DNA of 64,000 nt from Kofleriaceae bacterium (GTDB lineage Bacteria; Myxococcota_A; Polyangia; Haliangiales; Haliangiaceae): positions 62,001 through 126,000 of the forward strand of contig JANTGM010000001.1 in assembly GCA_024762925.1 (NCBI GenBank), written 5' to 3'. Shown here one piece after another: positions 42,192 through 44,081 of this stretch. Positions within the stretch are counted from its first letter, which is position 1; every line of letters starts with the position of its first letter. The position numbers and the translations under genes are program-made. The notes beneath the pieces are model-generated. The model did not search any database and had not been told where the DNA came from. It saw only the letters and a program-made list of their open reading frames with translations.

Positions 42192-42533
42192 CTATTCAGG
42201 GGGGCCGAGAGGGGCGCCGTTGTCGATCCAAATGCCGAGAATCTCTTTTTGATCGTTGCTCAGGTACGAATCGGGTGGCATTTGGCGAGCGCCAGTCTCC
42301 TCGTAGGTCACGGCACGAGCTCGGATGCGCTCGCGGAACTCGAAGGCATCGTCATAGGTATCGAGACGCAGATCGGGTGGCACGCCTGGGGCCATAGTTT
42401 CGCCGTGGCAGCGACCACAGTTAGCAGTTAACAACACCTCGATTTCGCCGTGCCAGGTTGGATCATCGGGAATGTCCTCTGCGCAACCACCAATGAGCAG
42501 GGCTAGGAGTGCTATGGGAATTCGCGTTTTCAT
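42192..42533 (-). CDS. Monoheme c-type lipoprotein (CxxCH)
   Basis: ATG 42533 has AGGA eight bases upstream (GCAGGAAACT), so I prefer it to the longer frame starting in the upstream gene. The 113-residue protein has lipobox IGGC (Cys17), heme motif CGRCH (39-43) and the C-terminal pattern QMPPDSYLSNDQKEILGIWIDNGAP. MPP is the probable distal Met ligand, as in planctomycete-type and related cytochrome-c domains. It is the third gene of a heme lipoprotein / heme porin / heme lipoprotein operon. A role in electron transfer across the outer membrane is inferred. Confidence 0.78.
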   Translation of the reverse strand: MKTRIPIALLALLIGGCAEDIPDDPTWHGEIEVLLTANCGRCHGETMAPGVPPDLRLDTYDDAFEFRERIRARAVTYEETGARQMPPDSYLSNDQKEILGIWIDNGAPLGPPE

Positions 42534-42546
42534 AGTTTCCTGCATT

Positions 42547-43716
42547 CTATAGGTAGTAGTGAAGTTGCAGCATGCCAGTGAAGCTGCGACCAGGTGGACC
42601 AATGCGCTCTGCGCGTCCCATTAAGAAGATTTCGTAGTGCGCTCGAGGAAGAAAGGAAATCGTGCTGGTTATTGCGTGCCGCTCAACATATCTGGTTAGC
42701 AAGTCTTCGTCGTAAAGCTCGTAGGCAATGGAGGCGCTCACTCCATCGGTGGGAAACCAGACTGGGCCAGCGTATCCGAGTAGCTGTAGCCGCGAGTTGT
42801 CGGGGGATTCTGTGAAGCGCTGATAGCCCGCATTGACTTCGGCCATCAGCAAGAGCTTTGGCCCCTCAAACCAGTGCTTGTAGTGACCTCCTGCCCACGC
42901 CTGCATAGTGCTCTCTGTGATGCGAAGACGCGTTCCCGTACCCAGCGCATGTGAATCTCCTCGCTTCTCGTGCATCGCCGTTACGCCAAGCGTTAGGTTC
43001 TGCGATCCGAGAATCGGATCCGAGGCATGGGCGGTAACATGTGTCTCGGATGCGTCACCGCGCCGACTCACTCCCAGGCCGTACGTCTCTTGCAGCATTC
43101 CAAAGCCCGCATATCGTCGAATGTAGCTCGTGTGATCTGCGAGCCTTAAGCCGTAGGGAGCGTAGAAACGTCCTGCACGCACCGTGTACCTGGAATCATC
43201 GGGTGCGTAGGTCATGAAGTGCTCGCGGGAAACCAGGCGGGAGAGCGCGCCCGATTCCGAGCGCATGCTGCCGTCAGGAGGCGCAGACTTGCGTGCCTTG
43301 CCCCGCAACCCCACAACTGCCGTGAGTGCAAAACCCCCGTGTTCTGCGCGCGCGCTCAGGTCAGCTTGCATCGGAAAAAGATGCAGCTTGCCGCTCTCGT
43401 TTACCGTGCCTTCAGAGGTCTCCACTCCCTTCATCAGCGCTGCGGCTCGCAGGTCACCACCAAGCGCGAGCCACGATGGCATCTCGACAAGACCGTGCAA
43501 GGCCGCGCCATCTCCCCCGCGGCTGAGGGTGTCCCCCGCTTCCTCGCGCCCCCAGCCGTTGATGAGACCACCACCTGCGGGAGCATAGTGGCATGTACTG
43601 CAGGCATCGGTATCGCTCGAGAACTGAAAGTGTGGATACGCCTGAGCTCTTGGCGCTAGGACTGACATCAGTACAAGAACTGCGACGCCGAGAATCAGAT
43701 GTCTTGCAAGGTTCAT
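42547..43716 (-). CDS. Outer-membrane beta-barrel with N-terminal heme-c motif
   Basis: Start ATG 43716 is set by the ATGA overlap with the upstream gene. A signal peptide cleaving near RAQA (residue 26) is followed by DACSTCHYAPAGGGLINGWGR, a CxxCH heme site (39-43) with a Gly-rich plug. The remaining about 320 residues alternate hydrophobic and polar residues with Gly turns (for example YTVRAGRFYAPYGLRLADHTSY), typical of a porin-like barrel. The C terminus (MLQLHYYL) ends in aromatics plus Leu. It resembles heme-fused barrels of deltaproteobacteria; one heme at the periplasmic mouth could pass electrons through the pore. 389 residues. Confidence 0.78.
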   Translation of the reverse strand: MNLARHLILGVAVLVLMSVLAPRAQAYPHFQFSSDTDACSTCHYAPAGGGLINGWGREEAGDTLSRGGDGAALHGLVEMPSWLALGGDLRAAALMKGVETSEGTVNESGKLHLFPMQADLSARAEHGGFALTAVVGLRGKARKSAPPDGSMRSESGALSRLVSREHFMTYAPDDSRYTVRAGRFYAPYGLRLADHTSYIRRYAGFGMLQETYGLGVSRRGDASETHVTAHASDPILGSQNLTLGVTAMHEKRGDSHALGTGTRLRITESTMQAWAGGHYKHWFEGPKLLLMAEVNAGYQRFTESPDNSRLQLLGYAGPVWFPTDGVSASIAYELYDEDLLTRYVERHAITSTISFLPRAHYEIFLMGRAERIGPPGRSFTGMLQLHYYL

Positions 43717-44081
43717 CGCAGAGCTCCATCGGCGATCCAAGCCTTGATGAGATCAACATCGGCCTTGGGCAGTGGTCCGTCGGGGGGCATAAGCGGTCGC
43801 TCGACGCCGTTCAGAAGAAATAGTAGGTTGCTGTTCTGCTCGAAGGGAACGACGAAGAATTGATCGACCAAGAAATCGTAGGAAGAATCGACGTCTTCAA
43901 AGTCGATGCCCGCAGTCTTTGAGAGGGAACTGTGGCAGCTCGCGGTTGCACAGTTTGGTTCAATGATTGCGGCGTGAATGAACTCCCAATCCGCTTCGCG
44001 CTCGCCAGGGTCGGTACAGCTCGCCAAGGTCGCTAGCAGAACTAGCGAACCTGCACTTGCCAGGTGTCTCGTGGTGCTCAC
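43713..44081 (-). CDS. Lipoprotein with CX4CH variant heme motif
   Basis: 122 residues with lipobox LASC (Cys22). The sequence IIEPNCATASCHSS holds a CX4CH motif (Cys44, Cys49, His50) instead of CXXCH, and the C terminus carries RPLMPPDGPLPKADVDLIKAWIADGA, the same Met-Pro-Pro and helix pattern as the lipoprotein at 42192. So it is probably a c-type cytochrome with a longer loop; heme attachment is not certain. It is the first gene of the three-gene operon. Confidence 0.75.
   Translation of the reverse strand: MSTTRHLASAGSLVLLATLASCTDPGEREADWEFIHAAIIEPNCATASCHSSLSKTAGIDFEDVDSSYDFLVDQFFVVPFEQNSNLLFLLNGVERPLMPPDGPLPKADVDLIKAWIADGALR

Follow-up and report, generated by a model that had tools for sequence, protein, structure and literature searches.

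How electrons might pass the outer membrane where every protein at hand carries a single heme motif is the question raised by three neighboring genes of Kofleriaceae bacterium (GCA_024762925.1, contig JANTGM010000001.1, positions 62,001-126,000 of the forward strand). All coordinates below are positions in this 64,000-nt stretch, referred to as the window. An earlier note on this DNA had suggested that the genes, here called A, B and C, form a minimal electron conduit built of monoheme parts. The gene order, strand, coordinates, overlap and heme motifs (CX4CH, CxxCH and CxxCH) that it described are all recovered from the sequence and the open reading frames (Table 1), and a monoheme outer-membrane redox operon is the part of its proposal that we find likely. 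We will argue, with moderate confidence, that the operon encodes an outer-membrane redox module of a Cyc2-like type, served by lipoprotein partners of its own, in which A is the next carrier and inward electron flow is favored.

Table 1. Features of the A-B-C operon, in window coordinates.
Feature	Position	Strand	Basis
Gene A, small lipoprotein cytochrome, 122 aa, one CX4CH motif	43713..44081	-	ORF, sequence, profiles, AF2
CATASCH heme motif of A, residues 44-50	43932..43952	-	translation
ATGA overlap, B start on A stop	43713..43716	-	sequence
Gene B, signal peptide, N-terminal CXXCH, predicted 16-stranded outer-membrane barrel, 389 aa	42547..43716	-	ORF, sequence, AF2, fold matches
CSTCH heme motif of B	43588..43602	-	translation, alignment
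Predicted barrel part of B, mature residues 62-367	42553..43470	-	DSSP of AF2 model
Gene C, lipoprotein cytochrome, 113 aa, one CGRCH and MPP	42192..42533	-	ORF, sequence, profiles
CGRCH heme motif of C	42405..42419	-	translation

The overlap between the stop codon of A and the start codon of B makes translational coupling of the two genes likely, and only 13 bp separate the stop of B from the start of C. The operon is flanked by aat upstream and a flavin oxidoreductase gene downstream, neither of which looks related to it, and genes for a terminal oxidase, a rusticyanin-like protein or metal handling do not occur beside it within the window. We infer that heme is attached to A, B and C and that the proteins reside at the outer membrane.

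B starts with the ATG at 43716, and its signal peptide, judged by eye, ends in PRAQA and is followed by YPHFQFSSDTDACSTCH. Both cysteines and the histidine of the CXXCH motif are invariant in an alignment of 50 B proteins (A1), the others being 29-59% identical to B of the window. The AF2 model of the mature protein, based on 39 sequences, has exactly 16 strands from residue 62 (pLDDT 81, pTM 0.82), and the heme segment (residues 1-40) is mostly of low confidence. A Foldseek search with this model returns general porins, OprP and OprO among them, in agreement with the earlier description of B as a porin-like barrel, and B is thus predicted to be a beta barrel in the outer membrane. Pfam and NCBIfam contain nothing for B, and no relative of it was found among the PDB sequences. 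The conserved polar residues in A1 (R69, R159, H174, H339, E341 and H365) would fit a polar lumen, and the invariant pair P94-M95 is a possible candidate for a Met ligand.

The earlier note had also stated that known conduits use multiheme cytochromes. This does not hold in general, as Cyc2 is a monoheme 16-stranded cytochrome-porin with demonstrated Fe(II) oxidation (PMC8406198). Cyc2 is defined by a 16-strand porin, one N-terminal CXXCH and the motifs AXPXFAR[QK][TY] and PXL; the published length filter is at least 365 aa, the protein itself being about 400 aa long, and OprO is named as its structural homologue (PMC8406198). B resembles Cyc2 in having a signal peptide, a single CXXCH right after it and, in the AF2 prediction, a 16-strand barrel, its 389 aa lie above the length filter, and the spacing of AxPxF...C..CH is similar. 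It differs in that AXPXFAR[QK][TY] is absent, the window having AYPHFQFSSDTDAC and FAR occurring in 0 of 62 loci, and in that PXL is absent downstream of CXXCH, where the window reads CHYAPAGGGL. In place of the Cyc2 motifs, the B proteins carry the signature AYPxF...C..CH..P.GGGL. The partners are also different: B has a near-constant CX4CH lipoprotein, whereas Cyc2, to which Cyt572 is related, is accompanied by Cyc1/rusticyanin genes in the rus operon.

To relate B to Cyc2 at the level of profiles, the Cyc2 side of the comparisons was represented by Cyc2-motif proteins of the phylum. A pattern search of the phylum finds nine such proteins with the upstream motif (L087-L095; AIPAFAR[QK]YG..C..CH) in 9 of 284 genomes. 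Direct alignment of B with Cyc2-motif proteins by hhalign covers 45 columns only (E 0.005), which is too weak alone. A bridging family with the motif PRFAxRxGxxCxxCHVNPxGGGMR aligns with B over the full length (E 1.6e-39, or 1.7e-29 for the barrel alone) and with the Cyc2-motif proteins over 324 columns (E 1.8e-7). Importantly, the match between the bridging family and the Cyc2-motif proteins hinges on the heme segment: upon its removal the E value is 0.035, and a non-heme porin control matches the bridging family better (5e-4 to 6e-4). Kinship with Cyc2, for which the link lies in the heme segment, is therefore likely rather than demonstrated, and B is not classed as a Cyc2.

The MtrCAB, MtoAB, PioAB and Geobacter PCC systems employ multiheme cytochromes with about 8-12 hemes, and the MtrAB barrel has 26 strands. 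The present operon is like them in that an outer-membrane barrel is encoded beside c-type cytochromes, but it has one heme motif per protein and 16 predicted strands, and we reject its membership in the multiheme PCC group on these grounds. The genome contains no member of the MtrB/PioB family (PF11854).

We now turn to the small lipoproteins, whose membrane location is read from the lipoboxes alone. A starts with a GTG codon at 44081 and has the lipobox LASC with Cys22. The CX4CH spacing is constant across the alignment of A relatives (A4), and the MPP that follows the heme motif likely provides the Met ligand. With the Pfam profile, A proteins are PSCyt1-like in 25 of 28 relatives; these reach E 5e-8, and A of the window scores 15 bits against a gathering cut-off of 22. 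Among solved structures, profile searches place FoxE (5mab, E 7e-9), an Fe(II) oxidase of Rhodobacter, closest to the A family. Both FoxE heme domains align with the A profile, but FoxE has two CXXCH hemes, while A is a monoheme CX4CH lipoprotein. The AF2 model of A is all-alpha, or mainly helical (pLDDT 84), and a fold search with it gives weak matches, mostly cytochromes c, with E values of 1.5 or worse.

C most likely starts with the ATG at 42533, which has AGGA ahead of it, and its lipobox is IGGC. The C, R, C and H of CGRCH are invariant in the alignment of C relatives (A6), and C of the window matches Cytochrome_CBB3 with E 1.8e-4, under the Pfam cut-off. Profile A6 gives PccH (4rlr) as the best solved relative of the C family, with an E value of 1.4e-4 and coverage of the heme-motif surroundings only. 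PccH is a Geobacter monoheme cytochrome for electron uptake, described as periplasmic. C is likewise monoheme, but it differs from PccH in its lipobox and adjacent barrel gene, and C of the window has no match to the PccH family PF22297 up to E 1, one relative matching it under the cut-off. Both matches, to FoxE and to PccH, are remote, and general cytochrome c kinship may be all that they reflect.

The earlier note had held that homologues that never co-occur would argue against a conduit; in the relatives, the genes do co-occur. In a search of 36 genomes, namely that of the window and its relatives, B is found in 27. All 22 genomes sampled from the window's family (Kofleriaceae-like Myxococcota) are among these, and multiple copies are frequent, with as many as six B matches in one genome. 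A single-protein scan of the genome contigs gave no confirmed relative, and alignment A1 was too diverse for this search; the tighter alignment A2 did find relatives, those with names being mostly Myxococcota, with several Kofleriaceae MAGs. The sample scored by script consists of 62 distinct B loci, mostly from fragmentary MAGs, and 61 of these have room upstream of B. A CX4CH open reading frame ends 41-128 bp ahead of the AYP of B in 59 of the 61, and with one CX5CH protein counted A adjoins B in 60; L109 is without A. The CX5CH protein (L119, 4518-4944; CARAGFCH) is otherwise a normal A. In three additional loci (L059/L129, L036/L110 and L099) the B motif is slightly different, and A and C are present there too. 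C follows B in 32 of the 62 loci and D, a further gene discussed below, occurs in 16.

In a tree, 61 B proteins fall into two groups (100/100), one of 36 rows with mostly A-B-C(-D) loci and the other of 25 rows with mostly A-B. This split makes A and B the core and C an accessory. An A-B-C wire is not what is conserved as a unit, as the 25-protein clade keeps A mostly without C. In close pairs, dN is well below dS for all four genes, which are thus under purifying selection. DUF1592-like and DUF1552-like genes recur near 8-9 of the loci (for example L075, 261-2400, and L050, 8669-10256, both on the minus strand); the output of a screen for further recurrent flank genes was dominated by antisense ORFs.

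Some C relatives are diheme proteins with an Ig-like middle, a domain that is missing from C of the window. The same genome has a second A-B-C set (contig C85, 93-2968; L002/L062), in which C is of this diheme type with the Ig-like middle. Within the A-B-C(-D) clade, B of the window falls together with two loci that have a diheme C (100/99). The small C of the window could thus have arisen by reduction; alternatively, the diheme C may be derived. Gene D follows C in L100 (6778-7173), L103, L107, L115, L133 and others, and is missing from the window. It is P460-like (PF16694 in 8 of 10 D proteins), with a CWx[RK]CH (CX3CH) motif close to its C-terminal end and a lysine (VKE) that is invariant, and it differs from the cytochrome P460 family in being a probable lipoprotein and in having CX3CH where P460 has CXXCH.

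On this basis, the following mechanism can be proposed. The N-terminal c-heme segment of B would probably plug the periplasmic mouth of the 16-stranded pore. The Cyc2 models place the heme at this mouth, so that a dissolved donor has to pass into the pore. By analogy, what enters the pore of B from outside and exchanges an electron with the heme would be a small reductant or oxidant, for which dissolved Fe(II), other metals and small redox molecules are candidates. A, which is probably anchored in the outer membrane on its inner leaflet, would take the electron from the B heme and pass it to carriers in the periplasm. C, together with D in the loci that have it, would be accessories that widen the range of partners or offer a second docking site. 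The nature of the substrate, electron flow and its direction, the position of the plug and the membrane side of C are what we infer in this scheme. Inward flow, i.e. an oxidase or uptake function, appears more likely than outward flow, since the Cyc2 layout, FoxE and PccH all point to electron uptake, each of these links being weak.

An alternative is a linear wire with A inside, the B heme in the lumen and C on the surface, carrying electrons to or from external solids. The presence of three heme proteins in one operon speaks for it, as does the 60-residue segment ahead of strand 1 in the AF2 model of B, which could reach the lumen. Ig-like domains are common in surface proteins, and the larger C relatives combine such middle domains with two hemes. 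However, C of the window has just 113 aa and no Ig-like domain, the clade of 25 B proteins mostly dispenses with C, and the heme of the Cyc2 models sits at the periplasmic mouth. If B resembles Cyc2, the distance to a C on the outside of the cell would be too great for direct transfer. We consider this wire improbable. The broader idea is a full trans-outer-membrane conduit in which all proteins are monoheme and a heme-bearing pore is flanked on either side by a lipoprotein cytochrome, and which would be widespread among Myxococcota that are not known to oxidise iron. It is slightly less improbable, but still unlikely.

The second alternative has the same parts running in the opposite direction, from the periplasm through A and B to a small extracellular oxidant, as a respiratory or detoxifying reductase. 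The direction is unreadable from the sequence, and the P460-like D hints at nitrogen oxides in some relatives. On the other hand, neither the window nor the majority of loci has D, and for all three proteins of the window the nearest characterized relatives are tied to electron uptake, which leaves outward flow with a low probability.

We have also considered that the operon is a redox or metal sensor, in which B would sense the exterior through its heme, with A and C relaying the signal. The low number of hemes and the several B paralogues in a genome would suit such a role, but the neighbors in the window are aat and the flavin oxidoreductase gene, and no signalling gene adjoins the set there, making a sensor very unlikely. 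Finally, the single motif per protein could mean that the CXXCH of B is structural or due to chance, in an ordinary porin that lies by unrelated heme lipoproteins, but its invariance in 50 B proteins and the linkage to A in nearly every locus contradict this, and we reject it as hardly credible.

The Cyc2-like module favored here would extend the monoheme cytochrome-porins past the Cyc2 motif definition, and searches by the published Cyc2 motif would miss the B family. The literature searched contains no account of the operon in Myxococcota and describes no extracellular redox metabolism in this lineage. A is a candidate for a missing piece, namely a cytochrome that serves the pore as its dedicated partner and is encoded by a gene overlapping the pore gene. 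The A and B pair is small and hence easy to express, so that the question of the electron carrier from pore to periplasm becomes directly testable.

A wider family in the phylum (L136-L147, L149-L155, L159, L162 and L163) consists of barrels that start with AYPWMIRHGYTxCxxCHxDPSGG, with a separate monoheme gene downstream (YPxxVxxxLGMxCxPxCxxCH). Related barrels in L148, L157, L158, L160 and L161 have two CXXCH motifs ahead of the barrel, some of them with an upstream heme-motif gene.
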